Origin: Sclerotinia nivalis
Taxonomy: Eukaryota > Ascomycota > Leotiomycetes > Helotiales > Sclerotiniaceae
Reading direction: 5' to 3'
DNA: 64,000 bases
Assembly: GCA_029531795.1 (NCBI GenBank)
Contig: JAPEIS010000001.1
Span: 3,534,001-3,598,000 of the forward strand
The position numbers and the translations under genes were made by a program. Positions 1-49,500 of this stretch are shown piece by piece (within the stretch, counting starts at the first letter, position 1; every line of letters starts with the position of its first letter). Under the pieces are notes generated by a model. The model was not told the origin of the DNA. It saw nothing but the letters and a program-made list of their open reading frames with translations, and did not search any database.

Positions 1-3000
1 CTTTTGCTGATTTGGTATTCGTTTTAGCAATTCTTTTCAAGGAAACAAGAGTGCAAATAGGATTGAATGGAAAGAGAAATATTGTTTCTTTTTTAATTGC
101 TATATCTATTGTTTCGTTTTTAGAGATATCTAAATGATTAGGGATTCATCGAATTCGAACTGAACCAGGACGGGTATATAGCAAACGAAATTTGAGAGGT
201 TAAGCGGTAGTTAGAGTATAGAAGTTTTCGAATATAGTTTGCGAGGATCCTATTGAATGAGAGTACAATCGTATAGCGACCTTCAGATTATCCAAAAAGA
301 TTCAAAGGTTTGTAGCGAATCTGTTTGAGGGTAGTAGTATTGCAATTTGTGTATCTTTTAGAGTTACAGCTGTTTCAATATCGAAGATCTCCGTATTACA
401 ATCGAATGAAAAAATCTATCGATCTATTTGCAGATTATATTGATAAATCATTAAACTATCTTTTGTAGAACTATCCAAAATTTTATTTTTCGAATTATTA
501 GAGAAAACCTATAAATCGTTTATTGGGATTGTAGATAGGAATCTTACAAAGTCTTTAATTGCTTATACTTTTGAATGATTAAGAAGATTATTAATCTGGA
601 TTTCTATAGCAATATATGATTCTTTGATTCTCCAAAAAAGAAGAACAATTGGATTGATATATTCTACTTTTGGGAGAACTAGAATTGATCTTGAAAACTT
701 TGATTTAATAATCCTAGTTTCTTTAATCAAGATATTTTTGGTTCGAATTCGAAAAGGATGATTAGGATCAAACCGAGCGGTTCGGGTAACGAAACTTTGT
801 AAGATCAAATTGAGTTCAATCTCAAAAGGCATTAGATTTGATTCTTTGAATAGGATTGTAGTGTTGGTTGTACAGAATACTAGAAGGATTGTTCGAGTAT
901 TGATCAATACAATTTTGTTTAAGAGTTTCAAATATCCTTCTACTTGGTTCGATATTGTAGAATATGAACTACATTTTCTAATTCGATTAGGTCATCAAAT
1001 TTCGATTACAAAATAGCACTTTTTGAGAATACAAACTATTATTACTCGTTAAAATAGGATTGGAAAGATACCTCGAGTAATCTTTCCAAATGAATGTAGA
1101 GCGTTTGCAATTGTGAGAACTTTAGTCGATAATATCTGAACATAAGGTTTGAAATTAAGCTTTCTATCGAAGTAAACCCTTAATCATCTTAATAGCCCTG
1201 GTTTTTCTGTAATGGAAAGGATGTTAGGGTTTTCAATACTTCTTTTGGGACCTCTGAAAAAGTGGATTAGTTCAGATTTCTTCGGATCAAAAGTAATGCC
1301 TTCTGATTTCCCCCAGTTCAAAGTTTCCAGCATTTCTGATTGTAATTGATTACAGTTCGATTATAAGTTTGAGAAGAATACTATTAAAGCAATATCATCT
1401 ATATATCCAAATCTTCGAATAGGATTGCTTAACCAAAACAAAGGGGCTATATAAAGTATGAAAAGAATAAGCGAAATTGAGAAGCCTTATGGCAAACCAC
1501 ATTCAATATTAGTACTGGGTCCTGTTTCGCTGTCAAGCCGAATATGAACTGATCGATTTGTCGAGAACGATTGTATCTATCGAATTAGATTATCAGACTA
1601 TCTTTGTTCTCTGAATCGACAGACTAGGTATCCTAGAAAAACAATATCAAAAATGCCTTTGATATCTATAATTAGTAATATAGTTTTGGAGTCTAAATTC
1701 AAGACTATTTCTATATTATGTGTAAAGCAGATTGTAAGATCGATAGATGACCGAAAGGGAAGTACTCTAAATTGTTACTTGGTTAATACTTTAAGGGTTA
1801 TAGCAATCCAAGACATCTTTTTAGCGATCAAATATTCGAGATTTTTTTCTAGTATTGAAAGTAGGGTTATTGGTCTGTAGGATCTAGGGTTCGTATGATT
1901 TGATTTGTTCGGTTTTGGAATGATAACTACAATTACTGATCGAAAACATTCAGGGTGATAGTTTATTTCAAGATATTTTTGAAAGAATTGTAGAATGCTA
2001 GATTCAATTTGTGGTTATATTAGTTGTAATATTTTGGTTGGGATTTTGTTTATACTAGGAGTTGTGTTACCTGTATAAAGGATAGCAGTTTGTATATCTT
2101 GAATTGTAATTTCCGGGAATGGAATAGAACAAGTAAAGGCTGTAAAGAAATCGAAAGGGATATTGTCGACTTCAATTGTATTAGTCAATAGATTATTGAT
2201 AAATAGATCTCTTTTAGTTTGGATTGTTGTAATAAGAGAATGATCTAAAGGATCTGTTAAAGGAGGAGTTCGATATGTTCTAATTGATTAATACTATTTT
2301 GTTATTTTAAAAATATCTTTTATTTTCTTAATTGAATTAAGTTTAGAAAGCCAGAATTCCTTTTTCGGTTTTTTAATAATTTTTCGAAGATTCTATTTGG
2401 ATTCTGGAAAATTATTCGTTTGGTTTTTCTGAACAGATGTTTGGCAAGCCTCATTCCATTATAATTGATCTATATTTCAATTGAATGATCTTTGAATTGA
2501 TCCTGTATATATTAATTATATCGATTGAGTAACATTCAGAACTAGATTATCGAGATCAGAAATTGTAGATAAGATTTGAAGATCTAGATTCGCTAGGTTT
2601 TCTGATAATAGATTTGAAAAGAGTTTTTCGTTAAATATATTAATTCGCAATCTTCGAATTGGATCCTGGAATCTTGTATTCCAATTCAAAGTTGTCAGTA
2701 AGGATTTGTAATCAGAAGTTGTATCAAGATAAGAAGTTAGTATTATATTAACTATATATGATCCTGATAGAAATACAAAATCGAGAATCCTATTCAAATC
2801 GTGAATAGCTTCGCCGATTGTAAAAAGAAGATTGAAAGAATAATTATTTAATTAATTTGTAAAAAGCTTTATAAGACTTGAGTTTTTATAATAAAGAGAA
2901 TCCTATCTTGAATAATATAGATTTAAATCTTCTATAAAAAGTATAAAATTAAAAAAGGAAAAAGATAAATTAAATAAATCTTTTATCGTTTGGCTTTCAT

Positions 3001-6844: not shown

Positions 6845-7021
6845 AATATAGTACATTTATACTAAACAAAATTGAAAATATACTTTTTGATTTTGAAAAT
6901 GATTTCGATATTGATATTTATACTTTGAAAGTAAAAGTATATTTTTATAATTATAACGATAATAATAATAATGATAATATATATTACAATAATTATAATA
7001 ATAAGGAAATATATCAAGAAT

Positions 7022-7580
7022 TCAAATAATAATAATAAAAAGGTATATATCTATTTTATTCTTTTGAGTTTATATTAATATTTTATAATAATCGAAGGTC
7101 TTTTATATTAACAACAATAACGAGAAGATATATATCTACTTTTTTCTTTTAAGTATATATTAATATTCTATAGTAATCAGAGGTTTTTTATATTAATAAT
7201 AATAATAAAAAGGTATATATCTACTTTATTCTTTTAAACTTAATATATTAATATTTTATAGCAATCGAAAGTCTTTTATATTAATAATAATAATAAAAAG
7301 ATATATATCTATTTCATTCTTTTGAATTTATATTAATACTTTGTAGTAATTTAAGGTTCTTTATATTAATAATAATAGCGAAAAAGTATATATCTATTTC
7401 ATTCTTTTGAATTTATATTAATATCTTGTAGTAATCGAAGATCTCTTATATTAATAATAATAACGAAAAGATATATATCTATTTTATTCTTTTAAATTTA
7501 TATTAATACTTTGTAACAATCAGAAATCCCTTATATCAACAACAATAATAAAAAGATATATATCTATTTCATTCTTTTAT
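7022..7580. repeat. Tandem array, about 6.5 units of 80-90 bp
   Basis: The unit contains AATAATAATAA, then AAAAGRTATATATCTA, then TTCATTCTTTTGAATTTATA, then a TTTGTAGTAATCGAAG-like block, and repeats with small changes. Remnants of about two units occur reversed at 25190-25389 in Gypsy-2 copy 2. The array is internal to the element, between the two gag-like blocks. Confidence 0.8.
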
Positions 7581-8490
7581 ACAATTACAAAATCTATTAA
7601 TATTATTTCTTAAAAAGAAAGAGAGCAAATATCAAATGTTTAATCGATAAATACTTCAATAGATATTATAACAAAGACTAAGCTAATAGAGATTGAGCTG
7701 GTATAAACTGAACTGATAGGAAATGAGGTAGTAAAAGTTGAACAAGCAAATCTTCAGCTAATACAAATTGAAGCATAGACTAATAGATTTATAATATCCT
7801 TTCTTTAATTATCCTTTTAGCTCTTTTTTCAATCTTTCTATTATTTCTTTCGAAACTGTATTTATTAGAAGTTTGAAAATAGTTTTAGTTAGTATTGTTA
7901 TTGAATACAAGTCTATGAATAATGAATATAAACTATTCTACTTATTGTATTCGAATCTTTTCATCAATATTGAAAATTCTTCTGTTTTTTGCGATATATA
8001 TATACGGGATAATATAGAAGATATTAGTTTCAACGAATGCTCTAATTTTAGATTCTCGATATTATTTACTTTAACAAAGTATTCAAGTTTTGTAGTTAAA
8101 CTACGAAAATATAGATTATATAAAGTAGATAAAAATAATCGATTTGTTTAATAGATTGTAGATATATTAGATAATGATCGAAGAGATTTTCATTGAAAGT
8201 ATCCTAATTGGTCTAAATACCTTCTTGAGCGAAACAATATCGATATATATTTGAATGATAGATTTCTATAGCTAAATAAAAAGCTTTATTGTATATTAGT
8301 TAGAAAAATTCAATTCTTTAATATTAAAGCGATTATTATAGAATCTGTAATTAATCATATATCAGATTGGTTTGAGGTAGATTACAATAGTAACTTTTAT
8401 AAAGATAATAAGGATTTGAAGACTATAATTGGTAAAAAGAATAAAGGAAGTATTGAAAATGTTGATGATTTGTTAGAAAAACTATAAGTA

Positions 8491-12115: not shown

Positions 12116-13913
12116 ATGGAGAACTTAGTTGATACCATTTATGATTATGGGCTGCTGGCCGTCTCTCTTACTGCCATTGCATATGTATGTTCTTCTGCGC
12201 GCATGTAACTATACAATATGTTGACTAGACTATTAGTTACTTGCTGAAGCTATCTACAACGTCTATTTTCACCCATTGGCCGATGTGCCCGGCCCATTCT
12301 TGTGCAAAGTCTCAGGTTGGCCTTCTTGCTATCAAGATTCGACCGGGTATCGTCACATTTGGATTTGGTAGAATCATCAGATTTACGGTCAGTTAAGACA
12401 TAGTATTCCATTCATCGACATCTACTGGTTAGTACAAGGTGACAGATTTCGTTACAGACCAGGTGGAGTCCTGGTAGCCACACCCAAGGGATACCGTGAC
12501 ATTTACAATTCTAAGGCAAATGTGAAGAAAGCCAAGTGGTACGAGGTCTGGCGGAGAAATAATGAGGATCACAGCGCATTGAATACCACCGATCCTCGCA
12601 AACATATGATTCTACGAAAGCCCTTAAACAGCGCCTTTTCGGAAAAATCGTTGCGTTCGTCAGAGCCTTTCATTATAAAGAATGTTGACCGTTGGATTGA
12701 GCTCATGCTAGATGGTGAGAAGACCAAAGGCACAACTGAGTGGGCGACGCCAAAGAATTTGGGCGGCGAATGGGTTGATTGCCTTGTTTTTGACATACTA
12801 GGCGATTTGTGTTTTGGGAAGTCTTTTGAGACGATAGAACACAAGGAGAATCCACTTCGTCAGATTCCGCATATCATTGGCGAATATTTGCAGTTCATGT
12901 ATCCGGTAAGCAGAAAAAAACATAATCCTTGGATAAAAATGTCACTAATCTCTCCGTCCCGTAGATTTCGAATTCGCCCTTTCTAGACACATGGGTTTGG
13001 CTCAAGCCTCGCGGCATTGATAAGTTACTCGCCATACTTACTCCCAAGCCTGCCATCAATTTCTATAAATTCCTAGAAACATGTGTCGAAGAGCGTAAGA
13101 AGCAAGAGCAAAGCATAAAGAAGAACAATACGAAGAATGAACGGAAAGATATGTTTCACTATCTATTCCAAGCCAAAAACTCTGAGACTGGCGCCCCCGC
13201 CTTCAATCACACCGAGCTCGTCGCTACAGCTAATTTGCTGGTAACCGCGGGCTCGGATACGACTGCCACAGCTCTTTGCAGCGCCTTTTTTCACTTAACA
13301 CGAAACGTGCACGTCTACGAAAAGCTTGCGAAAGAGATACGAGACACCTTTCCTTCAGTCGAGGATAATCCGCTCCGGACCAACTCTTTCCAACTGCCAG
13401 TATCTGCAAGCCTGCTGTCTTGAGGCCATGCGAATGTCACCAAGTGGACCATCAGAACTTTTGCGGCAAGTTCTTCCCGGCGGCCATGAAATTGACGGTC
13501 ATTGGTATCCAGAAAACACTCTGATCGGTGTACCAAGTTATTCATTGCACTACCATCAGGAGACATTTGAAGATCCATTCGTCTTTCGACCTGAACGCTG
13601 GATACCAAACGACGAACAAGGCATTTCTGCTGAGCATGTAGCTGCCCTTCAAGGAGCATTCAACCCTTTTTCTATCGGGCCTGGTCAGTGTCCTGGTAAG
13701 AATATCGCCTTGCTTGAGATGTACATGGCTTTGGGTCGGATGATTCATGGTTATGATATTCGTCGACCAGTCGATGATATATCCAATCGTGGTGCCGGTA
13801 GACTTGAGTATATTTGGGGACGGAGGAATAAGAATCAGTATCAGGTTGTTGACGCCTTTCTTGCTCTGAGGGATGGACCGATAATTCAGCTTTGTCGAAG
13901 GGCAAATGCATGA
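12116..13913 (+). pseudogene. Cytochrome P450 (fungal microsomal, benzoate 4-monooxygenase/CYP65-like), disabled
   Basis: Four exons can be placed: 12116-12184, 12237-12387, 12433-12905 and 12965-13913, with GT/AG introns of 52, 45 and 59 bp. The start MENLVDTIYDYGLLAVSLTA gives an N-terminal membrane anchor, followed by FHPLADVPGPF, the usual proline-rich hinge. The I-helix ANLLVTAGSDTTATAL, the ExxR helix LEAMRMSP, FRPERW, and a heme-binding loop FSIGPGQCPGKN are present. Two lesions break it: an in-frame TAG at 12369-12371 where relatives have Gln (WQxH), a CAG-to-TAG change of RIP type, and a 1-base insertion near 13367 between VED and IRSGPT. The heme loop also has Gly where the conserved Arg two before Cys is expected. 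The restored length would be about 546 residues. P450s oxidise small molecules at the ER using a reductase partner; the substrate is unknown. Confidence 0.88.
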
Positions 13914-26209: not shown

Positions 26210-26868
26210 AGTCTAGTACCCTACTTTCGGGCCACCCCCTCTTTTGGGCCACCGTTACCACCAAAATTAACGATTTTTCGATTTTATAACTCCACGAAAA
26301 ATCAATATAATCAATTGAGATTTAAATTATAAGTTCTTTATATAGTTATTGATTAATATTGAAAATATTAGAATTTTCGCGATTTCTTATAAAAAGTTAT
26401 TAATATTTAAAATTTCAAAGTTTTAATTTATATGTGATTTTGTGACAACTTTTTAATCAATTTGTTAACGAATTTTATAAATCTAAATAAATCAATAATT
26501 ACAAATTATAATACTATTAAATAATATATTTTTGAAAACTTTAAAGATCAAAGAATCATTTAAATTTTATAATTTATTTTTAATTATTTTTGTTAAAAAG
26601 TTATTTAAAATTTCAAAAAAAATGAAATTTGTATAGGATTTATATACAAATCGAAAATCGAAATTTCAATATTTTATTTTCAACGATTCAAATTGTATAA
26701 TATATTTCTAAATTCCTGATTCTATATATAATTATATAAGAAATCTATAATTAAAATTTCAATTAATTATATTAATTATTGATAGAGTTATTAATAGGTC
26801 AAAATCGTGATTTTTGGTGTAAATGGGTGGCCCAAAAGAGGGGTGGCCCGAAAGTAGAGTACTAGACT
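26210..26868. mobile_element. Palindromic pogo-type MITE A
   Basis: A 659-bp element with about 44-bp terminal inverted repeats starting AGTCTAGTACCCTACTTTCG, the same as the Fot1 copies, and TA at 26208-26209 and 26869-26870. It has no coding capacity. The inverted similarity continues toward the centre with mismatches (for example ACCAAAATTAACGATTTT near 26270 against its complement near 26810), so the whole element is a fold-back. It would be mobilised in trans by the Fot1 transposase. Confidence 0.85.
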
Positions 26869-28110: not shown

Positions 28111-29489
28111 CAGTACTAGACCACTTATACTTGACGGCCGGATTTTACCCGGAATTATTTATCAATCAACCTATATTCAATCTTAATTATTAAATCAACC
28201 ATTCAATATTTTAATATTAAATTTGAATATATTAAACATTTTAATATATACTTTGATAAAATAAGATTTTTCTTTTTGTAATTCATTTCAATTCTTCAAT
28301 ATTTAGTATGCCAGCCTTCAGCCGCGATACAGGCCTCTATTCTACTCGACATACTAGCTCCCAATTTATTGAATAACTTTTCATCCAATATATCCTAAAC
28401 TGTTTGTAAAGCATTCTTTAATCTTTACTTAATATATTCCGAAGTGCTTTTATCTACAGCGATATCAAGAAATATCTCGAAAAGGCGTACTTTTAAATGC
28501 CACCAAATATACTCTATAGGATTCAGATCAGGGTTATAAGGAAACCATAATTCGACAAGAGGAATGCTCTTAATCCGAAACCATTCTAATACCTTACGAG
28601 CACAATATATAGGAGCATTATCTTGCATAAAAGAATACCCCTTATCCAATCCTATCCAATATAAAGCTAACTCACTATTAAAGATCTCAAGATAAGAATT
28701 AGCACTATATCCGAACTTTGCACTCTCGAAATCCCTATCTATAATATAAAGCTTGCTTCTTCCGATATCACAAAAGCCTCCCCATACTATAACCTTCATA
28801 TTCTTTTTTGAAGAATAAATTTGAACCATATTCCGCTTCCATTTTTGAGAAGAAGAGCGAAAGATCCATTCCTGTTTTTTACCCTTTCTCTGCTCTACAA
28901 AGCACTCGTCCGACTAGAAGATTAAGCCCCATTCCTCCGCTGTCCACCCTTTATGAGCTAGACACCATACTGGCCTTTTAATCGCATGTTCTTCTATAAG
29001 TTCAGGCCTCTTTCTAGCTCTCCAATTGGCTATACCATTCTCTTTCAAAATCCTCTTAATGATAATAATACTACAATCCAATCTACATACTAATTTTGTC
29101 TCTTTATAAATCGATTTCGGAAATAATCGTATATAATATAACAGATATCGTTTATCTCATTTGATATATAATTTCTTTCGAGTTTTTCGCTTTATAGATT
29201 CGCTATCGTTGCGCAATTGATCCATTTTTCGAGTATAGGATATAATGGAATAGGGGATTTTATAGATCTTAACAATTTCGACCACTTTACTACCCCCCTC
29301 AAGCCTCCCTATTATTCTTCCGCGATCGTATGGGCTTAAATGCATTCGGGGAACATTATTATTGCTAATTGACCTTAATGGCCTATGTTGTGGTAGCATA
29401 ATTTATGAAAATAATAATAATAATATTGAAGGAAACGCGTCGTTTTCGAAAAAAGACGCGTTTCGGCTAGTATAAGTGCACGGTTACTG
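28111..29489 (-). mobile_element. Tc1/mariner-like transposon, copy B
   Basis: A 1379-bp full-length copy in reverse orientation, ends CAGTACTAGACCACTTATAC (left) and ...CACGGTTACTG (right), with TA at 28109-28110 and 29490-29491. It is the least mutated of the three copies. The Ginger-like element begins three bases after the right-hand TA. Confidence 0.92.
28296..29345 (-). pseudogene. Tc1/mariner-like transposase (copy B), lightly damaged
   Basis: Starts MHLSPYDRGRIIGRLEGGSK at 29345. The catalytic half 28829-28425 is open over 134 codons and shows VIVWGGFCDIGRSKLYI, YSFMQDNAPIY (Asp) and WFPYNPDLNPIEYIWWHLK (Glu), the DDE boxes of Tc1/IS630 enzymes. The first catalytic Asp, expected near 28915 in an FSDE-like box, falls in a damaged stretch. 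Stops near 29155, 28930 and 28395 inactivate it. Confidence 0.88.
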
Positions 29490-32400: not shown

Positions 32401-32799
32401 TATATACTAACTGTAGATATATAATTGATCGTATATATGACAATGGGTCATATGGATCCGTACCAGATTCGTGATATTACTCTCAAATAAATGAAATCAA
32501 TCTATCAATTGAAATCATTGTTTAATATATTAATACTATTCGAAAAGCTATAAAGGAGATACAAAAGATTCAAACGGAATATTAAGTATAAAAAGTATTA
32601 AAATAATAAAACGAATCTTCTACTTCAAAAGTTTATATATTATTTATCACATCTGCAAAATATCTACAAAGACAACGATAGGATATTTAGTTAATCTGGT
32701 TAATATATATTAACTAGGATAACAATAGAATAATAGATTAAAGACTTCGATAACAATATAACAACAGCGATAATAGATTTAGAGTTTCGACAAAAGCTT
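32401..32799. other. AT-rich DNA right of the Ginger element
   Basis: Weak Gln/Lys-rich coding traces near 32480-32680 recall the Gypsy-2 gag but are too decayed to assign. Confidence 0.3.
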
Positions 32800-33087
32800 A
32801 ACAATAACGATAATATGATTTCGTATAAAAATAAAATTGTAATAACAAATATAATATGATTTTGTATATAAATAAAACTAGAACAATAATAGTAATATGA
32901 TTTCGTGTATAAATAAAATCAGGACAATAATGATAATATGATTTCGTATATAGATAAAACTGAGATAATAATGATAATATGATTTCGTATATAAATAAAA
33001 CTGGAATAACAATAATAATATGATTTCGCGTATAGATAAAACTGGGATAATAGTAATAATATGATTTCGTGTATAAATAAAACCAGG
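32800..33087. repeat. Tandem array of seven 41-bp units
   Basis: Each unit contains AATATGATTTCGTRTATARA, then TAAAACT and an ACAATAATGAT-like spacer, repeated seven times with few changes. It lies 590 bp upstream of the hydrolase start codon. Confidence 0.88.
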
Positions 33088-33674
33088 ATAAAAATCAAGA
33101 AATACTTGAATAGTATATTTATATATATTTAATAGATATATATTATATATTTTAGTATAGCAGATTAATATATATAATAATAGTTGTATAATTATATTTT
33201 AGTACTATTTGATGAAAATATTATTATTATAGATGAAAATGAATAAAACCCAATATAAAACTACTAATAATGATTTTATCTTCAATACAAAAAATATAAC
33301 TATTATATTACAAAATCAATCTAAATTAAAAAAGAATTATTTCCTTATATTTTGTTTATTCATTCTTTAATCTATAATTTCTATTCTTCAATTTCTAATC
33401 CGTTTTCTATTAGTCTTTTATAATATAGTTCTAATTGAAGTTTTCTTTTTCCTTTTAGGGGGGATGAGAACGGTGATTGGTTTGAGGCATCCTTGGTTTA
33501 GCGGGATGTCTTCGCTTATCGTTCTACTGATTCGAAAGTTGGTGCAAAAGGCGAATACCCATCATAGATACTTCTTCACACTGCCACCGCTGTGCCTTAC
33601 GACACTGTCTTCGCTCCGCTTCTCCTGAATTACTCATTCATCTATTATCTTGGTACGAGCCTCCATACGTCAAC
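33088..33674. other. Upstream region of the hydrolase gene
   Basis: AT-rich up to about 33455, where composition changes abruptly to neutral DNA at GGGGGGATGAG. The final 220 bp, pyrimidine-rich before the ATG, is the likely promoter and 5' leader. No element ends could be found at the composition boundary. Confidence 0.5.
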
Positions 33675-35174
33675 ATGGCACCAGATGAAGACAGCGACGC
33701 CGCGAAAAACCTTATGAGCTGGACACAGAAATTCAGGAAAGACAAGAACCATCTCTTTTATGCTCCAATATCACTACAACAAGCTGCTACGACGGCTGAT
33801 CAGCCAGCTAATGGGCCAGTTTGGGCCAGCAGGACAACTCTGCCAGCCCCGAAGTGTGATTCCATTCTTACTGCTATCACCGAGGCAGTTTATGACCTTG
33901 ATGATAGTTCGTGCAGAGCGGACTTAGTTGCTACACTGGCTGATGTCCAGGTGCAGTGGAGTGGGTTTCGATCCGGAGTTGGTAAAAATGAAAAAGAGCC
34001 AAACATTACTGAGGAGGAAAAGTACCAAGGCCTTATGAAGGATACACAATCCAAGACAACCATTATATACGTCCATGGGGGACTAAACTAGTAAGCTCAC
34101 TCATACCCAGAGAAAATGCATGGAACTTAACCTTCGATTATCCAGCTCTGGAGGACCAGCTTCTACACGCGCAGTTACATCAACTCTAGCACAACTTACC
34201 AAAGGTCGCTGTCTTGTTCTCGAGCAACGACTGGCCCCTCAAAATCCTTTCCCTGCACCTTTGATCGATCTTTTGGTAGCATACCTATCACTTCTCTACC
34301 CACCTAAGGATTCTTTTCACGAAGCTCTCACCCCCGAGGATATCGTCATCGCTGGAGAAAGCACAGGAGGTAATCTATGTCTTGCTTTCCTTCTTTTCAT
34401 TCAGCACTTTCAACGGAGAAAGACCCGTATCAATTTCCACGACCATTGTATTTCGATCCCATATCCCGCAGGTTTTGCAACCTTCGGTGCTCAAGGTGAT
34501 GCCACGATGTCGTTGTAAGTATATTTCTTTTCATTATTAAATTTCGAAGGCGAAATGCTAATCCGGCGAGTCTAACCAGCCCATCATATGTGCGAAATGC
34601 AAAATACGATATCGTGAACGACATTCATCCAACGCTCAGCGACCTCATAAGGCCAGATTCTATCTGGCCTAGTACGCCTCCAAGATCACATATCTACTGC
34701 CCTACCACGCACCTTATAACACACCCTTTAGTCAGTCCTGTTTCTTCTAAGTCATGGCCTTCCATCAAACCGCCGCCGATATTTTTCGCCTATGGTCAAG
34801 AGCGCATGCTCGACGAAGGAAGGTTCATGGCCAAACAAGCTTTCAAAGCTGGTGCTTTGGTACAATTTCACCAATACAACGCACTTCCTCATATCTTTGC
34901 CTTTTTCGCAGAGATACCTCAGACGGCTCACCTCTTTACTCAATGGGCCAAGTTCTGTCGAGCGTGTGTTGAAGAACCCCAAGCGATAAGTTCCAGTCGA
35001 TATTGTGTTTATGAACCCGTGGCAGATCCACCTGGTTTCAAGACTATCCTTCGTGATATTGGTGACGGGATGGGATTCACGGATTTGGAGTATGGAGAGG
35101 TGTTAAAATTGACAGATGGAAAAAAGAAGAAGATGAAGGCCTGGAATGGACCGAAAAAAAAGTCATCGTTGTAA
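33675..35174 (+). CDS. Alpha/beta hydrolase fold-3 (HSL-like esterase/lipase family)
   Basis: Three exons, 33675-34090, 34146-34514 and 34580-35174, join in frame through short introns (55 and 65 bp, GTAAGC/CAG and GTAAGT/CAG, with CTTAAC and CTAAC branch-like sites) to give 459 residues. Near residue 134 the oxyanion motif HGG is followed by NYSGGPASTR. The nucleophile elbow GESTGG is near residue 209. The Asp/His pair fits ERMLDEG near 338 and LPHIF near 364. The RLAPQNPFPA block is typical of this family. A Lys-rich tail ends the protein. Such enzymes hydrolyse esters of acids or lipids; fungal members include esterases of unknown substrate. The gene appears intact though transposons lie on both sides. 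There is no signal peptide, so it is probably intracellular. Confidence 0.87.
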
Positions 35175-37463: not shown

Positions 37464-38571
37464 ACCGATATCCCTACATCGTGCACGACCCCACATCTTG
37501 CACGCCCTCCATATCATAACTACGATCACTTCAAAATTCGATATTAATTATAATTTATAAGATATAAAACTACGATTTCTTTTGATGTATGAAAAGATAT
37601 AGTATTATCCAATAGAATCAAAAAATCTTTACTTCATCAATTTCGACGAAATCTTGATGTATCGCCCGGCCCTTAAACACAATACCCCCCCCTCTCCTTC
37701 CACCACTGATTTATCAACCTCTATGATATCGTAATCCTTTATAGCTTCCTTAGATACTAGACCTATAGTATAAGAACGTTTTGGAATCATTTGAACTCTT
37801 TTAACAAAAGATATTAATGATTTCCAAGCTCTTTTCACCCCCTCCTTAGTATCACATGCAATTTAACGATCAACCTCCCTTTGCACTACCCTCTCTTTAG
37901 TCGCCCTATCCCTTTGTTCCCTTTCAACTTTCTTTTCAGCTTTCTTTTGCTTCTTAGCTTCCTTCTTCTGCTCAGCAGCTAGTGCTTTAATCGATTGGTA
38001 AATTCTAGTTCTCTCAATTTGCAAAGGGGAGTATAAAAAAGCACTCCCGCCCTTCTCCCCTACGAAGTTTAAACATTTGAAACGGGTCCTTTTTTTCCTT
38101 TCGATCTTCAAAGCTTCTTCTAGACCCTTTGCTCTATACAATTGGATATTAGCATTAGCTACATTCGTAAATGCAGTTTTAAAAAACTTCTAAATGATAT
38201 TGGGATCCTGTTTGAGGCGAAACTCTAATTTGAGATGACGAAGAGTTTTAATCATATATAGTGTCTTTATTTTATTCCCTACAAATTGTATCGACATAGG
38301 TAACATAAAGGTTCTTTCAAGTTCGATATTGCGAATAATAACGTTCTTATTTATAAAATAAATACTTGCTTTTTCGAAAGATTTCAGGATATTATAAGTA
38401 GTAGCAGATTGAGCCCAAACTACCTTAAATATCATCCAAAGGTTACATTTCGATATCCCAACGATACCCCCGCTTTTGTGCATCAGATTGTTGAATTCTA
38501 TATTATAATTCATCGAAAAGGGGAAAAAGTAGCCTACATCAAGAAATTGTAGCCGATGCATAAAATGGGGG

Positions 38572-39440
38572 ATTGATTGATTGATTGATTTAATTAACGT
38601 CCACACTGAGTCAAAGACTATCTAGGACGGTTAAGAGCTCAATCGAGCTCTTAACAGATGGCTATGGGTAGTGCTATCTAAATAGCATACAGGTTTGTAT
38701 ATATTTTTGATGGGGGAAGTGAAAACTAATACTGGGGAGCAAAGCCCGGCCTCTATACGGCATCGCATATAAAGATAAAAATACCAATCAAAGCATTACA
38801 CTCATAATTTTCCAAATCCGATCCCTCTATCAATCAAATCCAAACAACCTTCCTTCACATCAACTCTTTGTCCTGTTCGTAACTTTCCAGCGGTCATGCC
38901 TTGCTTAATATCGACTTCATAGAACCCTCCAAACCATGGGGATATTGATCCTACAAGGTGCCCCAATCCTGTATGTAGTATATCCTCCACCGAATTCTAT
39001 AGCAGATACGTTATTAACTCGGGTCGTTCCACGCAGCTCCTTCAAGTATATGAATTGTTGTTGTTTTGATTCGAATCGAAGGAGGTAAGGCCTGAACCTT
39101 AAAACCGAATTTGATAAATCGCGCCTGATACCCCAGAGGGATCTTGGAGATGATTTTGTGGTATATTGTTGTAGATGATGGTGTTGTCCTTTGTTTCGTA
39201 ATAAAAGTAGTGTTGTAGAAAGCACAATCCGATAATGCGACTGTCAAAAAAACCGAGATCTGGCCTTTGCCATCAGCCAACTCGGAGGCAAAAAAACGTC
39301 GCGATCAGGTGCCTCTTCCTCTTCCAATCACCACGACTCCATCAAATGACTCAAACTTAGCTCTGCAGACTCTAATAATTAAATAAAAGAGCTGGAGGTT
39401 CGTAGAGGACACCGCGTACAGGTGTTGAGTCTTGTCCTCC
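38572..39440 (-). mobile_element. Short LINE copy 1 with 5' HDV-like ribozyme
   Basis: An 869-bp minus-strand insertion in the Tc5/pogo transposase gene, flanked by ATAAAATGGGGG (38560-38571 and 39441-39452). Its 3' end is the (TCAA)n tail at the left edge, seen on the plus strand as TTGATTGATTGATT, after a conserved ~190-bp 3' segment (38572-38760). Its 5' end is the ribozyme-like sequence. The middle carries ORF1-like sequence (39240-38810) but no RT, so it is internally deleted or otherwise non-autonomous. Confidence 0.88.
39348..39440 (-). ncRNA. HDV-like self-cleaving ribozyme candidate 1
   Basis: Read from 39440 downward, 93 nt. P1: nt 1-7 GGAGGAC pairs with nt 31-37 GUCCUCU, with a G1-U37 wobble. 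P3: ACC (18-20) pairs with GGU (28-30) around the 7-nt loop UGUACGC. P2: GACUCAA (10-16) pairs with UUGAGUC (87-93). P4 is the CUCCAGCUCU / AGAGUCUGCAGAG hairpin. The joining strand before P2 is CUAAG, with C81 at the catalytic cytosine position. The first nucleotide is the first base of the element. Cleavage is predicted 5' of G1 and has not been shown. Confidence 0.82.
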
Positions 39441-39848
39441 ATAAAATGGGGGAAAAGAATCAACAAAATAATCTTCAATTCATCGCATTTCGATATAAAT
39501 TCCATATTCACATAGCTAGAATGATCATCTACAATCAATAGACAATATCCTTTCCCTGCTTTTGAACAAGTATGATGTTGAAAAACCTTGGTAAGCCAAG
39601 TGAAGCCGAATACATTCGATGACCATCCATTGTTTGAAGCTCCGAAATAAACCTGATCCTTCACTCTTATCTCATCAACCCATGTATCCTATAGATCCCC
39701 AAATTCCCCTTTATAAATTAGAGTAAGAGGGATAGCCGTTCCATCGATACATATGCATACTAAAAGGGTGATAAACTCTCTCGATCCGTCCTACCTAACT
39801 TTCGTAGCTCTACCACGATCATATACACTAGCATTCATTATCCTCTTC

Positions 39849-40943
39849 TGATTGATTGATTGATTGATTGATTTGATTTAACGTCCACACTGAGTCTAAG
39901 ACTATCTAGGACGGCTAGGGGCTCTATGAGCTCCTAGTTGATGCTATAGGGAGTTGTATGCTAGCTAGCATATAGTTTGTATAGTTTGGGTTTCTTTTCA
40001 ACCCTTGAAATGTTGATTGAGGGCAAGTGAAAACTAATACTGGGGAACAAAGCCCGATATCTTCATCCTCTAAGACCTTTCCTTCCTCGCTCTCCCCCTA
40101 CCCCTTGCTAATTAAAGTATCCCATTGATATAATCTTCTTCTTCGATCCAATCTGCTATTCCGATACCCACTTCCCACAAAGGTCAAGAGTCATCTCCGT
40201 CAAGATTACCTCCAGTACAGCAAAAGGGTCCTCATACTAGTGAAAAGCAATTGGGAAGCATTACTCTCCTCAGCTCGAACTCATTCATTAGCTCCTTTGC
40301 ATGCCTTCCTAGGTGTAATGATCTCCAGCTTTATTTGAATGTAAATAATCGAAACCGCCGAATGGAATATCGGTCGTTTGAATGTAATGATAGTGGGGCG
40401 TAGTCCTAACCCTACTCACACATACACAAAAAATATTTTCGTAAAATCGAGGAAAAGGTGTAATATCGTATCGATGCTCAAAGTATAACATTAATTGATA
40501 GATGATAGTATTCTCTGTTTCGTGATAATCATAGTGTTAAAATGAATGTGTTTTCGATAATCGATTGTCGAAAAAAGGTATAAAATGCAAATAAAATAAT
40601 AGCAAATTCTGTATCGAAAAGACTCTTCTGGAATAGAAGGGACTTATTAGATGTATTATATTTTGTATTGAGGTAATAGTCGATGGCAGATATTGAATCT
40701 AATTAGGGCTTCTGTAGCTATCGTTCGTATTTTGGGTTGATGTTCGTTCATCCTTTCGAAGATATTGATGCTGTAAAATCGTAATAACCCCTCCATTGTG
40801 AATATCGTAATCGAGAAACCCTCTCTCTCTTTTCCAATGTATCCGATTCCATCAAATAATTCAATCTTAGCTTTGCAGACTCTCAATAGAGAGCTGGAGG
40901 TTCGTAGAGGGCACCATGTATAGGTGTTGAGTCTTCGCCCTCC
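39849..40943 (-). mobile_element. Short LINE copy 2 with 5' HDV-like ribozyme
   Basis: A 1095-bp insertion in the same transposase gene as copy 1, flanked by the 14-bp duplication TCATTATCCTCTTC (39835-39848 and 40944-40957). It has the same 3' segment (39849-40070) and TTGA-type tail, and the same 5' start. Internal sequence 40800-40320 is homologous to the ORF1-like part of copy 1 but more mutated. No RT is seen. Confidence 0.88.
40858..40943 (-). ncRNA. HDV-like self-cleaving ribozyme candidate 2
   Basis: 86 nt from 40943 downward. P1: GGAGGGC pairs with GCCCUCU, covarying with copy 1 and keeping the terminal G-U wobble. P3: ACC/GGU with loop UAUACAU. Joining strand CUAAG. P4: CUCCAGCUCUC / GAGAGUCUG. 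P2: GACUCAA against UUGAAUU has one mismatch and one wobble, both explained by G-to-A and C-to-T mutation. Probably weakened by RIP. Confidence 0.75.
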
Positions 40944-41989
40944 TCATTATCCTCTTCATAGTTCTCCCCAAACCAATAAGAAAGCCTTTTTCGTCCCAAT
41001 TGTATATATTCTTTGATGATATATCGTATTTTGTAATCACTTTTGTTAACTAAATGGAAAAAAGAAGGATATTAGCATAACTCTTTTAAATAATAAAATT
41101 CAACAACAATGTAAAATAACTCAAACCAGATCATAAAAATGCTCAAACATAGCAACATTATCAGCTTTCACACGCAAATTATCAATGCATCAAAGATACC
41201 AACTTTGAAGACATGTTTTATACCTTTTCACAAAATTTGCCGTCCAATTCTTCCCTAGAGAACGACCTATAATCTCTTCTGCAAGGTTTTTGACTATACA
41301 GCTTGTAGAAAGCATAGATCTTTATATCAACTTATTGATCTGATCAATTAAAGCCTCTTCTTGCTCTTTTGAAAGAGATTGATGAGTTTCAGCATATACG
41401 GTACTACGGGAGATGGTTTTGCCTCTATAGCGCCGAAAAAGCGTCGAACGATTGATTTTGAAGAAATTAGTTATTTGAGTATATTTAGGATGCTCTACAC
41501 CTTTAATTTGAGCTAATGCGAACTCCATACAGACCTCTAAAGGCATATCGTCGCTGTATCCGTCCATAATGGTTGATATTTTATAAAATTAAAAGTGCGT
41601 GCAAAATGTGGGGTCGTGCACGATATAGGGATATCGGTTACAGTAACCGTGCACTTATACTAACCGAAACGCATCTTTTTTCGAAAACGATACGTTTCCT
41701 TCAATTGATTGATTGATTTAATTAACGTCTACACTGAGTCTAAGACTATCTAAGACGGCTAGAAGCTTTATAAGCTTCTAACAAATAATAAATGGTAATA
41801 TGCTGGCCTAGCGACCATAGCAAGTACAGAGTTAAATCGATGGAGTTGATCTCCATCTCTTAATTGAGTGGGGGAAGTGAAAACTAATCCTGGGGTTCTA
41901 AAACCCTCCTTATCAATATTATTATATATAATAAGGAAAATAACAAATGAAATGTAATATAATTCAAATTGGAATGGTTGTTTTTTGAA

Positions 41990-42066
41990 GGGGGGGGGGG
42001 GGGGGGTAATTGGTCAATTTGGTCAATTAAATTGACCAAATTGACCAAATTGACCAAATTTGATCA
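41990..42066. repeat. Poly-G run of 17 and TTGGTCAA-type palindromic repeats in LINE copy 3
   Basis: A G17 run at 41990-42006 (C17 in the LINE sense) is followed by alternating TTGGTCAA and TTGACCAA units that form an imperfect palindrome, lying in the 3' UTR just after the ORF2 stop. Confidence 0.85.
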
Positions 42067-42068
42067 AT

Positions 42069-42725
42069 CTAGCCGAGTTCATCTAGTTGATCCCTTTCTT
42101 CTTCTTTTTCTTCTTGCAGTCTAGTGAGGTGCCATGATCTAGTGACTATTTTCGTTGCCTCGATGAATTCGAGGGTTTTAATGATTCCCGCTTTGGTGTG
42201 AAGTAGGTACTTCATAGTTAATCGTAAGGTAGGGTTGTTTTTCTTGAGTATATTTCTTGATGATTTGTATACAGGGCAACTGAGGAGAAGATGATCAGGA
42301 GTTTCCCTTTTTCCGCATCTACAATTGTCGTTTGATGCAATTCCGAAACGTTTTAGGTATGATTTGAAGTAGCCATGTCCGATTTTGAGCTGAAATAAGG
42401 CACTGATATAGTTTCTTTTGGTGTTTTCTGGGGTTCCGATCTTCGAACCAATTTTCCAAGGGTATGATTTTGAATAATTTGAGTTGATTGAATTGAGGAG
42501 GATTTTCCATTCTTGATCTTTTGTTCTTTTGATCTCCATTCCTAAAGAGGCGAAGCTAGTTTCGTTAGATGATGATCTTAATTTTGTAGCTTCTTTTGTC
42601 AGAGCATCGGCTAGTTCGTTTCCTTTTACTGAGGTATGTCCCGGAACCCAATTGAGTGAGATTTCGGTTCCCTTTTGTATAAGAGATTCTGCTGCTTTGA
42701 TTGCTCTGATTTGGCAAGCTTGACC
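42069..42725 (-). pseudogene. LINE ORF2 3' part: RNase H C-terminus and CCHC-like tail
   Basis: Minus strand from 42725: QACQIRAIKAAESLIQKGTE, then LNWVPGHTSVKGNELADALT, the RNase H signature. The frame continues openly to 42069 with a Cys/His motif, CRCGKRETPDHLLLSC, near 42320-42270, typical of the C-terminus of Tad/I-type LINE ORF2 proteins, and ends in a Glu-rich tail. This 219-codon stretch has no stops but lacks the RT and endonuclease that must precede it. Confidence 0.83.
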
Positions 42726-43870
42726 AGGGGCATCGGATGGCAGAGATAATATTATATTTGCAAATCTATGAGTCTTTTACAGTGTATCCAGTGAGACTAC
42801 AAATATAAGTAAGAGTAACCAATTCTTACTATGCTTTCCCAGATACTAGATGTTAGTTTCAGTATCCTTTGAGAAGATTGTTCCCAAGCAAAAACAACCT
42901 TTCTACACCCATTATCCTGTTTGTTTTCTAAGTCTATTCGGTATCTCCATTACTAATTGTTTTATATTCTATTATAGACCGATACATATATCCGTCCTCT
43001 CAAGCTGTATAGATAGTATCACTATCGCTACCATTATACGCTATGCTTTACGGTTTGTATATCGTTTCGCGTTACTTTGTTAGATCTCTTCTGTACAATA
43101 AAACCGATTGTATCTTGCAAGCTTTGCTATATCTTAACCCCTAACCAAGCAATATAAAACACAGCGTTTCCAGCTCATTAACCAAAACGCAATCTGCAAA
43201 ATCCATTCCCCCAATATATAGTTTATAATCGACAATACCGAAGATTGAGAACGTATCATACATAAGCATCATAAGGTAGCCTCTGCTAAAGCTTATCCAT
43301 TGCTATAATATCTATCGAATACTTTGTATAAGAATGAAACTTGCTAAAAACGTCCTCTTCGTTCGAGAGTTCTTTTATCGCTGTGATATTGCTTTTACAT
43401 ATTCGATAGAGTAAAGTACCAAAAGCATTTCTTTATCCCTAATCCGTTTATATAAGATTCCATTCCAATCTTTGTATATCCTTAATTACTCCTTTTAATC
43501 ATCTGTAAACTTCCAATTCAGTATACTTATAGATTGTATACATTGTTGAATCGTGAAAACTCTGTACATCAGCGCCCCAGAGATGCCCTATCAATCACTA
43601 GCACAACGCTTTCCTTCTCAGGCTCTGTTTCTATACAGATTTGTAAAAGCAATTCGTTTTGAAATGCTCTTTAAAGCATTTCTTAGGTTCTGTATTCCAT
43701 TGCAGATTCGTAAAGGTGGTTCTGCTTCGAATTCTATTATTGTTTTGTTGATTGTCGGATAGTTTTTATCTCCGTTCGACTGATAAATCCTCTATTCCGG
43801 GCCCAATTCACGATACCTTCACACCCAATACCGCTCCTTTTTAAAGTATAATCTTTGCTCAGCTCCAGTC
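42726..43870. other. Internal part of LINE copy 3, no recognised domain
   Basis: Neutral composition with short frames on both strands (for example 43553-43762 plus), none matching a known LINE protein. It may be ORF1 or 5' UTR of a longer relative. Confidence 0.4.
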
Positions 43871-43947
43871 TGATTCAATCTTGGCTCTGTAAATAAATTA
43901 TAGGTTCGTAGGATGCACCACGTACAGGTGTTGAATCATCGCATCCC
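43871..43947 (-). ncRNA. HDV-like self-cleaving ribozyme candidate 3
   Basis: 77 nt from 43947 downward. P1: GGGAUGC pairs with GCAUCCU, differing from copies 1 and 2 on both sides but still fully paired with a terminal G-U wobble. P3: ACC/GGU with loop UGUACGU. P2: UGAUUCAA pairs with UUGAAUCA over 8 bp, a different sequence from copy 1. P4 is short: CURUAA/UUACAG with one G-to-A lesion. Joining strand CCAAG. Confidence 0.8.
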
Positions 43948-44900
43948 CGTTTTCTTCAATATTATTATTATTATTATTTTCATAAATTATACTACCACAA
44001 CGTAAACCATTAAGATCAATTAGCAATAATAATATTCCCCGAATGTATTTAAGCCTATACAATCGCGGAAGAATAATAAAGGAACTTGAGAGGGATAATA
44101 AAATTGTCGAAATTACCAAGATCTATAAAATCCCCTATTCTATTATATCCTATACTCGAAAAATGGATCAATTGTACAACAATAGCGAATCTATAAAGCG
44201 AAAAACTCGAAAGAAATCATATATCAAACGAAATGAACGATATCTATTATATTATATACAATTATTTGCGAAATCGATTTATAAAAAGACAAAATTAGTA
44301 TATAGATTGGATTGTAGTACTACTACTATTAAAAGGATTTTGAAGGAGAATAATATAGCTAATTGGAAAGCTAGAAAGAGATCTGAACTTACAAAAGAAT
44401 ATACGATTAAAAGGCTAACATAGTGCCTAGCTCATAAAGGATAGACAGCAAAGGAATAGGGCTTAATCTTCTGATCGGACAAGTACTCTGTAAAGTAAAG
44501 AAAGGGTAAAAAACAGAAATAGATCCTTTGCTCTTCTTCTCAAAAATGAAAACAGAATATAGTTCAAATTTATTCTTCAAAGAAGAATATGAAGATTATA
44601 GTATAGAAAGGCTTTTGTAATATCAGAAGAAGCAAGCTTTATATTATAAATAGAGATTTCGAAAATGCAAAGTTTGAATATAATATCAATTCTTATCTCG
44701 AGGTTTTTAATAATGAATTAACTTTATATTAAATAAAGTTAGATAAGGAGTATTCTTTTATACAAGATAATACTCCTATATATCGTATTCGTAAGATATT
44801 AAAGTGGTTTCGGATTAGAAGTATTCCTTTTATCGAATTATGACCTTCTTATAGCCCTGATCTGAATCCTATAAAGTATATTTGATAGTATTTAAAAGTA

Positions 44901-46559: not shown

Positions 46560-49500
46560 CCTGATGATATTGTTTATTATTGTTCTACCGACACTTAATC
46601 GATCCTGTCCTACTTATGCTATGGTGGATAGCGGATGCGAAGGATATACTTTTGCAAATCGAAGTTGAATTAAAGCTATTAAACTTTCAATATATAAATT
46701 ATCTATTCCATTCGAAGTCATTGAATTCGACAGGAAAATATTGTCTGAAAACCGAGTGAATCGTTACATTCTAATCGATTTGCAAATCAATAATCATTAC
46801 AAAAAGAGATCAAAAATCTATATTATTGAGTTAGTTTATTATCCGATTGTTTTGGGATTAATGTAGCTAAAGAAATACGATTCTTATATCGAATTCGTAT
46901 TTAATATATTCCGATTCGATAACGAGTTTTATTGAAAATTCTGTAATACATCGCTACAACCATCCCATATAAAAGCATTACAAAACATCCCGAAGAAAGT
47001 CTACCCGGTATACTTGCCTTTCCGCCCGGATGCCTTTCAAAGCAAGGATATCGTATCTATATCAATAAGAGTTTGCACAATATATACTCATTGTAATTAT
47101 AAGATGTTCCAGGTTATTATAAATCTGATTAACAATATCCTATTCTAAAGAAAAGACTCTATTCTATTTGATCTATTTGAAAAATTCCGATCTTGAATCG
47201 ATGTATTCTCCCTACGAAACACCGACAAATTGCCCCCACACCGATCGTACGATTATAATATCCGTTTAAAGAAGAAAACCAAATTATCATTTGAAACTTT
47301 TTATTCTATATTCCGAAACAAATTTACTACTCTGAAAAACTGGTTATCCAAAAACCTTCAAAAAGAATTCATCCGTTTGAATTCGTCTACTTCAGCTTTG
47401 CTTGTTCTGTTTATTAAAAAACCCGATGGAAGGTTACAATTCTATATCGACTATCAAATTTTGAATAATTTATCAATGAAAGATCATTATTCGCTATTAT
47501 TTATTAAAAAATCCTTAAACAATTTGAAAGAAATGAAGTTCTTTATAAAGATCGATATCATCTTTGCATTCAATAATATAAGGATTAAAGAAAAACAAGA
47601 ATATCTAATTACTTTCTATACCCGTTTCGATCTGTTTAAGATCCTGGTTATACCTTTTGGATTAACCGATACATCCATTACATTTCAGCGTTTTATCAAT
47701 AATACTCTGCAAAAGTATTTAGATATATTCTATATTACTTATCTAGATGATATTCTAATCTATAGTAAAACCCATTCTGAGTATATTGTTTATATTCAAA
47801 AGGTCCTGGAAGTCCTAAAAAAGGCTAATCTGTATACGAATCTAAAGAAATATGATTTCTTGAAATCTGAAACCAAATTCCTGGGTTTTATTGTAGGCCG
47901 AAAAGGTATTCGAATAGATCCCACAAAGATCAAAACAATCATCGAATAGAAGATTCCGGTCTATTTAACAGATATACAAACATTTATCAAGTTTGGCAAT
48001 TTTTATCAACGATTTATTTATAGTTTTTCGTTTATCATATATTCATTGATTAATCTGATACGAAAGAACATTCCATTTGTTTGGAATTCTATTTGTACAA
48101 AAGCTTTTTCTATTCTAAAAATAACATTTACTGAAACATCAATTCTAATTATTTTCGATTGAGAAAAAGATATAATCGTAAAGATCGACACATCCGATTT
48201 CGTATCTGCTGAAATACTGTCCCAATACAACAATATAGAAATCCTGAAATCTATTACATATTTCTCGAAAAAGCATTCAGTTACCAAATATAATTATAAG
48301 ATTTACGATAAAGAACTACTAACCATTATTCGATATTTCGAAAAATAATATTTAGAATTAAAAAAAACGTTATCTCCAATCCAAATGATTATAGATCATA
48401 AGAATTTGGAATATTTTACAATTACTAAATTATTGAACCGTTGTCAAACCTATTGATCTAAATTTCTATCTCGATTCAATTTCAAGATTACCTATCGATT
48501 AAATAAACAAAGAGCTAAACCTGATACTCTAATTAAGAGATCAAAGGATCTACCTAAAGAAGAGAATAAACACTTTCTATACCAAAGCCAAACGATTTTG
48601 AAATCAGAAAACCTTGATCCCGCTTTATTCTTTATATTTATTTCCGCTTTTGTATCTATTTCGTCTATACTTATTTTATCTGATCCGATAGATTTTCTGA
48701 AGAAAAGAATTCGTTTTACAATCACTATCCATAATCAATCCTACCGATCATTGAAAGAACTTGATTCAGTTTACCCAACCTCCAGATCTATTCTATCCAT
48801 CCCTAACTCCCTGCCCATTTCTAACGCTCTACTTATCCCTAAAGCTTTATCAATCCTTAAACCATTATCTACTCCTATTGCTCCGCTTAATCAACCCCCG
48901 ATACCCATTGTAATCCCCAATCTGCTATTCGAACTATCGGAAAAACTGAAAACTCTATTTGCTAAAATATATATATCCGACCTTATACCTATATCTATTT
49001 TAAAGACCTTAATAAAAAAAGCACCCAAGTATCCCTGTATTACCCTATCCAAATACATCGAAAATAATAATCTACTATATTATCATAGGAAGCTTTTCGT
49101 TTCTGATTACAATAATCTGAAAACTGAACTACTTCGCTTAATCCACGACTCCCCTACTACAAATCATCTACACTATACTTACATCTTCGAGCTTTTATCC
49201 CGAAACTACTATTGATCTGGATATTATAATTATATTAACTATTAGATACATAATTGTTATAACTGTCATCGAACAATATCGAACTGTAGAAAACAAAAAG
49301 ATATCCTCCACCCATTCTCGATCCCTTAACAAACATAAAAGGATATATCAATCGATTTTATAATACACTTTCCGAAAAGTTTTGATTACAATATGATATT
49401 CGTAATAATCGATCAATTAACTAAAATGAAACATTTCCTACCTTATTATAATACTTATAATTCCGAAAAAGTAATCCGTTTATTCCTGAAACATATCTAG

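Follow-up and report, generated by a model that had tools for sequence, protein, structure and literature searches.

The minus-strand sequence at positions 39440-39348 of the window (the whole 64,000-nucleotide stretch that was analysed, from the plant-infecting fungus Sclerotinia nivalis) very probably specifies a self-cleaving ribozyme of the HDV class that defines where a non-coding retroelement RNA begins. Segmentation by script, with P4 drawn by eye, recovered every helix that the first-pass annotation had claimed: P1 (39440-39434/39410-39404, GGAGGAC/GTCCTCT, nt 1-7 with 31-37, 7 bp with a terminal G.U), P2 (39431-39425/39354-39348, GACTCAA/TTGAGTC, nt 10-16 with 87-93, 7 bp), P3 (39423-39421/39413-39411, ACC/GGT, nt 18-20 with 28-30, 3 bp), P4 (CAGCUCU/AGAGUCUG, with one U bulged) and a CUAAG strand containing the predicted catalytic C81 (39360). 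J1/2 consists of AA, a single C17 is unpaired, the 7-nt loop of P3 reads UGUACGC, and a two-pair P1.1 (G22-C39 and U23-A38) can form as well. P1.1, a U and a G in loop 3 (L3) and the C in J4/2 are active-site features in HDV structures; loop 3 of copy 1 has a U and a G at the expected places, which we take to be the counterparts of those in HDV ribozymes. The order and spacing of P1-P2-P3-P4 agree with the proposed nested double pseudoknot in copy 1 and likewise in subfamilies A2, B, C, D and E. Copy 1 (39348..39440, minus strand, subfamily A1; E 7.3e-15 with model R1, built from 12 of 34 distinct sequences) is on sequence grounds a strong candidate for an HDV-like ribozyme. With a 101-bp query, 26 of the 40 genome matches scored out of 172 candidates were identical over 101 bp, copy 1 included.

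G1 of copy 1 is the first base of an insertion, as had been proposed: a 13-nt target-site duplication (TSD; 39441..39453, minus strand) lies flush with G1 and has its counterpart in the downstream TSD at 38560..38572. The inserted element itself (38573..39440, minus strand), which runs from G1 to an (AATC)n tail, had been taken for a LINE; it is a non-autonomous element of ~868 bp that is LINE-like only in its last ~170 nt, the last 85 nt showing 83.5% identity to the 3' end of an intact LINE. Two further copies lie on the same strand. Copy 2 (subfamily A2, 40858..40943, E 9.2e-17 with R1) is damaged, having a C.A mismatch in P2 and UAUACAU as L3, and heads a non-autonomous element of ~1,095 bp (39849..40943) that ends in (AATC)n and is flanked by a 14-nt TSD (40957-40944 and 39848-39835). 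Copy 3 (subfamily B, 43872..43947, E 9.2e-23 with R1) has intact P1, P2 and P3 and, by eye, a single mismatch in P4. A descriptor that demanded P1, P2, P3, P4 and CNRA, all paired, matched copy 1 but missed copies 2 and 3, because of the C.A pair and the UAUACAU loop in the former and the P4 mismatch in the latter.

In the window the descriptor otherwise matched a single A/T-rich site on the plus strand (26542-26628), which satisfies this loose HDV description and was taken as chance. Eight first-order Markov sequences of window length gave three matches, ~0.4 per 64 kb; the fold alone is thus not unique, since the descriptor also matches random sequence of the same make-up, and what makes that of copy 1 unique is its coincidence with the first base of the element together with compensated variation. 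A core pattern allowing at most one mismatch was found at 178 dispersed sites, covering all subfamilies, in 50.3 Mb of genome sequence (31 contigs), against 0 for the reversed pattern. Rfam gave no match above its gathering threshold anywhere in the window, and in 37500-44500 none to an HDV family even at E<=5, a miss that weighs little because the Rfam HDV models hold no pseudoknots. The ribozyme core was sought in prokaryote contigs and none was found, and plasmids searched with the B module gave no match. A single core match in a viral contig with phage-like genes (by eye) was not matched by the model and was rejected as chance. The relaxed scan used on whole elements is loose, and besides true ribozymes it returned chance-like matches in L076 (8976 + and 3726 -), L078 and L079.

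Elsewhere the window contains cytochrome P450 gene fragments (12372-13913, plus strand) within an island of higher GC content (~0.45), an alpha/beta-hydrolase-like frame (34500-35171, plus strand; Abhydrolase_3, just under the curated cut-off), an RVT_1 reverse transcriptase relic of another retroelement (47197-47946, plus strand) and tandem arrays with periods of ~85 and ~41 bases (6940-7670 and 32735-33136). Diverged repeats of 86-87% occupy 23370-24603/28268-29501 and 43963-44900. Among them is a DDE_3 transposase relic that narrowly misses the curated cut-off (28425-28913), and copy 3 directly adjoins one of these repeats.

The integrity of the fold was scored in 68 loci (L001-L068, copies 2 and 3 being L039 and L009), a set that favours intact copies because its members were found by similarity to three queries. 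The predicted catalytic C was present in 65/68 loci, the three losses all being C>T, as were P1.1 and a complete P1 (65/68 each); the L3 U was kept in 68/68, the L3 G and a complete P3 in 63/68 each. P2 was complete in 53/68 and never fell below six pairs; 43/68 loci had all core features together. Seven identical A2 loci carry a C.A mismatch in P2. Damage was seen in single copies, namely window copy 2, L071, L075 and L081; outside the 68, L075 is without the P3 region and L081 has broken pairs in P1 and P3. C>T or G>A changes made up 214/243 of the differences between A1 copies and 1,846/2,208 of those between A2 copies (eight types tallied), an excess that we take to be the one expected of repeat-induced point mutation.

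Covariation was counted in 36 distinct A/B sequences, obtained from the 34 by dropping L023, whose first two letters look like flank, and L001 (A1), and by adding L069-L072 and L074; A1 was read separately because MAFFT had shifted its P1 by one column, and C, D and E lay outside the count. Pairing was found in 94.7% of cells against a shuffled mean of 89.1 (0/500 shuffles as high), and in only 28.6-44.0% when the structure was slid; by helix, P1 was paired in 99.2%, P2 in 96.0% and P1.1 in 95.8% of cells. Double-sided cell changes numbered 85 against a shuffled mean of 32.7 (0/500 as high), counts of cells leaning high because the alignment rows are related. Counted by pair, seven were changed on both sides (three in P1, two in P2 and two in P4), compared with 5.8 in shuffles and reached by 155/500, and further pair types were not in excess (22 versus 24.0 in shuffles). 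Between subfamilies P1, P2 and P4 vary by compensation. Each of the P1 variants GGAGGAC, GGAGGGC, GGGATGC and GGCCAGC and of the P2 variants GACTCAA, GATTCAA, GACTCT, AATCTCA and ATCTCT occurs with its complement, and the fold is retained in A1, C, D and E despite a different sequence (e.g. P1 GGCCAGC/GCTGGCC and P2 AATCTCA/TGAGATT). Changes in P1 and P2, which the first-pass annotation had singled out as a test, are compensated between these subfamilies. In L071 and L074 an A-type body is combined with a B-type P1, both strands of which have changed together. The subfamily E ribozyme of L083 (130-290, contig C12) has a much longer P4 arm (CTTGTAC/GTACAAG and more, by eye).

The 5' ends of the short elements coincide with the predicted cleavage site. 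Among 38 testable A1/A2 loci, the edge of a TSD (12-19 nt) lay within the allowed span of 3 nt from G1 in 36, within 1 nt in 33 and exactly at G1 in 23. When the test position was shifted, none of the eight shifts gave a single such locus (0/38 each). L043 and L062 were without a TSD at G1. Varying TSDs, a simple (AATC)n repeat tail and a LINE-like 3' end mark these elements as non-LTR derivatives. Their likeness to LINE sequence is confined to the last ~170-200 nt, of which the terminal 68-85 nt can be aligned to the intact LINE L076 itself, and the shared 3'-end pattern occurs, with at most one mismatch, at 421 sites in the genome. A ribozyme core stood at the right distance from 12/13 A1-type and 12/22 A2-type 3' ends among the matches listed, and four of the ten A2 misses match ribozyme copies listed separately. 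Most A1/A2 copies among the matches listed are hence complete at the 5' end, unlike LINEs, which are frequently 5'-truncated (as described in PMC2104539).

Copy 3 has a different construction. From its G1 extends a fixed module of ~1,208 nt (42740..43947, minus strand), WEIRD-like in architecture, which is followed by a 5'-truncated LINE fragment (41706..42739, minus strand) that matches the intact LINE from nt ~4955 and ends in (AATC)n; a 13-nt TSD with one mismatch (43960-43948 and 41705-41693) flanks the whole chimera. What had been regarded as a LINE with its own ribozyme is accordingly a chimera of this module and a truncated LINE. The fragment contains a C-terminal ORF2 frame with an RNase H domain (42069..42776, minus strand; PF00075, E 1e-05); the first residues of the frame come from the module.

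Thirty B loci were read, copy 3 included, their ends being placed by BLAST and by eye. In all 24 readable copies the module ends at the same point (+-2 nt) and differing sequence follows; its length is 1,187-1,229 nt with small gaps or inserts, and 1,390 nt in L031, which has an inner insert. The module match stops early in the other six (L014, L026, L028, L032, L036 and L037), and in L014 it is followed by LINE sequence in reverse. In L028 (C2:1027238-1027325, minus strand) LINE sequence (72%) in the same orientation follows module nt ~160, a join that may represent fusion elsewhere or later damage. Eight of the 24 copies enter an L076-type LINE, at nt 297, 2328, 3188, 3678, 3966, 4311, 4884 and 4955. 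Among the remaining 16, a domain scan of ten translated pieces gave RVT_1 in one (E 2.7e-12), a sub-threshold Exo_endo_phos_2 in another (E 0.0037) and nothing in eight. By eye only, several of these continuations resemble LINE ORF1 or endonuclease. The flanks of seven chimeras were tested beyond copy 3, and a single TSD surrounds the whole chimera in L020, L021 and L030, as it does in copy 3; L010 has a tail and is without a TSD, and L013, L025 and L027 showed no tail within the stretch examined. At nine joins compared, the overlap was 0-3 nt and the LINE side started at C in six. The module holds no frame of at least 150 aa, lacks the LINE 3' end and was found only fused to other sequence. 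The B chimeras thus share with MINE a 5' part with a fixed end, a variably truncated LINE in the same orientation, and flanking repeats (TSDs in four chimeras).

L076 is an intact LINE with an ORF1 of 489 aa and an ORF2 of 1318 aa (Exo_endo_phos_2, RVT_1 and RNase_H), presumably Tad-like from its domain order. Its TSD TAATTACGTGGA stands directly after the (AATC)n tail and directly before a leader of ~260 nt, and no ribozyme was found in this leader by the model or by the relaxed scan. With L078 broken by an insertion and no leader obtained from L079, L076 is the only intact LINE with a readable 5' end, and on the strength of this one leader the ribozyme is not called a LINE 5' UTR. The first-pass annotation had placed the ribozyme at the 5' terminus of a fungal LINE family; the fungal host, the non-LTR machinery and the 5' end of the insertion all stand, but that this 5' end is the LINE's own is not supported, given the TSD of L076 flush with a leader in which the ribozyme was not found. 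In L078 (~900-1290, minus strand) an A2-like short element lies reversed inside ORF1 of a LINE with a 1303-aa ORF2 (by eye), and in L079 (~1500-2040, near the start of C1) a long array of a TAAAGTTGATTATAG-like repeat, which may be subtelomeric, stands upstream of a LINE fragment.

In the D copy L077 a ribozyme with perfect P1 and P2 (model E 2.4e-05) precedes by ~1.28 kb a LINE part that begins inside ORF1 and has a 1306-aa open frame. The 5' boundary of this insertion is not G1, since a 30-nt duplication is situated 188 nt further upstream; the 137 nt adjoining G1 on that side match another locus (88%), the likeness reaching the base that precedes G1. Within these 188 nt (L077:2697-2884, contig C9) the stretch matching C16:967390-967523 (88%) looks by eye like the start of an LTR element. 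The upstream 188 nt could possibly derive from a co-transcript copied without cleavage or be part of a tripartite chimera, and we interpret L077 as having been copied from a read-through transcript that escaped cleavage, or as the product of a further template jump. This copy speaks against the notion that the RNA is always cut. In the other D copy, L082, the upstream sequence differs exactly from G1.

Several other explanations were weighed. That the fold arose by chance in an A+T-rich repeat draws on the background rate of the plain descriptor in random sequence of the same make-up, but this explanation is already refuted by the 178 versus 0 result of the pattern control, by the compensatory variation and by the position of the fold at the first base of the insertion, and its probability is extremely small. 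A conserved 5' pseudoknot could instead act purely as a structure, binding a LINE protein or blocking an exonuclease or the reverse transcriptase, and would never cleave itself. The ribozyme assignment is indeed a prediction made from sequence, and binding of an R2 protein to a pseudoknotted partner has been described (abstract of PMC12222951). Against this reading, the residues kept in the 68 loci are those of the active site (C in 65, L3 U in 68, L3 G in 63 and P1.1 in 65), insertions start at the predicted cut, and two fungal HDV variants are described as cleaving (PMC5640933); we regard this alternative as unlikely.

Slightly less remote, though still improbable, is the view that an autonomous LINE natively begins with the ribozyme, the short and B copies being internal deletions of that LINE. 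The copies do have 3' ends in common with the LINE, R2 and L1Tc are described as carrying such ribozymes (PMC3414825, PMC4035085), and the L077 ribozyme lies upstream of a LINE with a long open frame. Yet even there the LINE part starts within ORF1, the TSD of L076, the one readable intact LINE, is flush with a leader in which no ribozyme was found, and in the 24 readable B copies the module end is constant with a variable other side, the module also being joined to sequence unlike L076 (one piece with RVT_1). The B chimeras might, on the other hand, be nested insertions or DNA recombinants rather than products of template jumps, as the genome does hold nested elements (L014 and L078) and L010 is without a TSD. 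With all eight joins to L076-type LINEs in the same orientation, a module end fixed in 24/24, one TSD around the whole chimera in copy 3, L020, L021 and L030, and 0-3 nt of overlap at the nine joins, we consider such an origin very improbable.

Dozens of insertions begin at the predicted cut, which suggests that the ribozyme sets the start of the RNA and that it can be fused by the element's enzyme onto broken copies. For a ribozyme that acts by self-cleavage, we infer the following route. A copy would be read through from a host or neighbouring promoter, and the ribozyme would cut just 5' of G1, releasing an RNA with G1 as its first base and a 5'-OH. The enzyme would come from a Tad-like LINE of the same genome, which would recognize the common 3' end, as told for Mg-SINE (PMC2104539), and copy the RNA by target-primed reverse transcription; as this would run to the ribozyme-made end, the new copy would again begin at G1 between TSDs. 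A1 (~868 bp) and A2 (~1.09 kb) would multiply in trans in this way. In B, and probably in D, the ribozyme would head a fixed RNA of ~1.2 kb without the LINE 3' end, and the LINE enzyme would jump template from a truncated LINE RNA onto the 3' end of the B RNA, giving rise to MINE-like chimeras. Since each inserted copy starts at G1, a promoter lying upstream of G1 is not carried along; release by the ribozyme from whatever transcript enters it would account for both the sharp 5' end and the persistence of that end through rounds of copying. More tentatively, the ribozyme may head a mobile 'starter' RNA onto which fungal LINE reverse transcriptases routinely jump from broken LINE RNA, in which case WEIRD and many orphan fungal HDV variants would be one thing, and A1/A2 would be heads of this kind that had acquired the 3' end of a LINE and turned into parasites in their own right; we consider this broader proposal plausible but rather less likely than not. 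If it were true, the 'starter' RNA would give truncated LINE copies a promoter-independent 5' end served by any host transcript.

HDV variants are on record from 26 fungal species, and cleavage of two of these variants was demonstrated with two-piece constructs (PMC5640933, 2017), so that the earlier remark that no report was known holds only for the link to retroelement 5' ends, which was not found in print. Fungal HDV variants and ribozyme-headed non-autonomous elements were thus already known; a search of the open-licence PMC literature yielded no paper in which fungal retroelements or a WEIRD-like RNA begin with an HDV-like ribozyme, and it is this link that appears to be new. The gene associations of the fungal variants are called widely variable in PMC5640933, the main text of which is without the string 'transpos'. 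The HDV architecture in fungi is common to both studies, as is the replacement of the proximal P4 by an internal loop (here GAAC...AGAGC, by eye). For part of P4 that source describes a loop E; the internal loop here was read by eye only. Extra nucleotides between P2 and P3, mostly C, are reported there; C17 is their counterpart here in A, B and C, and D and E are without the extra C. The pair at the cleavage site is C-G there, but G.U here in 35/36 rows and G-C in D1.

As far as PMC5640933 describes them, the fungal HDV-like ribozymes had sequence and activity but no biological role, and WEIRD of MINE, as presented in PMC2104539, had been assigned a position in chimeras but no function. The present locus may join the two, as the ribozyme marks the 5' ends of the tested insertions (36/38 short copies and four chimeras, among 178 core sites) and heads a WEIRD-like module. 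Two questions become testable, namely what role the fungal HDV variants have and why LINE enzymes fuse one RNA to truncated LINEs.

Magnaporthe, the host of MINE, presumably belongs to another order of fungi than S. nivalis. MINE consists there of the WEIRD RNA and a truncated LINE (MGL), WEIRD being described as a non-coding RNA that is present at full length, has no known function and does not occur in solo copies (PMC2104539, 2007). A 5' RNA (non-coding and ~1.1 kb there, a probably non-coding B module of ~1.21 kb here) and a variably truncated LINE on the 3' side are common to both systems, and the direct repeats of 10-20 bp in Magnaporthe have their parallel in our TSD-flanked chimeras. 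The Magnaporthe joins follow GCC, whereas here the LINE side starts at C in the six of nine already mentioned. The available text of PMC2104539 describes no ribozyme for WEIRD, while the B module is ribozyme-headed, and the likeness is one of architecture, drawn from that description. Mg-SINE, as told in the same paper, is non-autonomous and has a 3' end that mimics a LINE, as A1/A2 do; the 5' head of A1/A2 is the predicted ribozyme. As to a SINE-type Pol III promoter from tRNA, 5S or 7SL, ARAGORN reported no tRNA in the window and Rfam gave no match there at gathering level.

Short non-autonomous elements with an HDV-like ribozyme head are also represented by NARTc, RIME and SIDER with Pr77, for some of which ribozyme activity has been shown (PMC4035085); according to that source their trypanosomatid partner LINE (L1Tc/ingi) has the ribozyme too, unlike the one readable intact LINE here. 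The closest analogue of A1/A2 is provided by R2 and the R2/R1 SIDEs of Drosophila, as described in PMC3414825, in which a 5' HDV-like ribozyme is likewise combined with a LINE 3' end and the SIDEs are mobilized in trans and show compensatory changes in P1. Those elements insert in 28S rRNA genes, whereas A1/A2 are dispersed and occur beside a Tad-like LINE.
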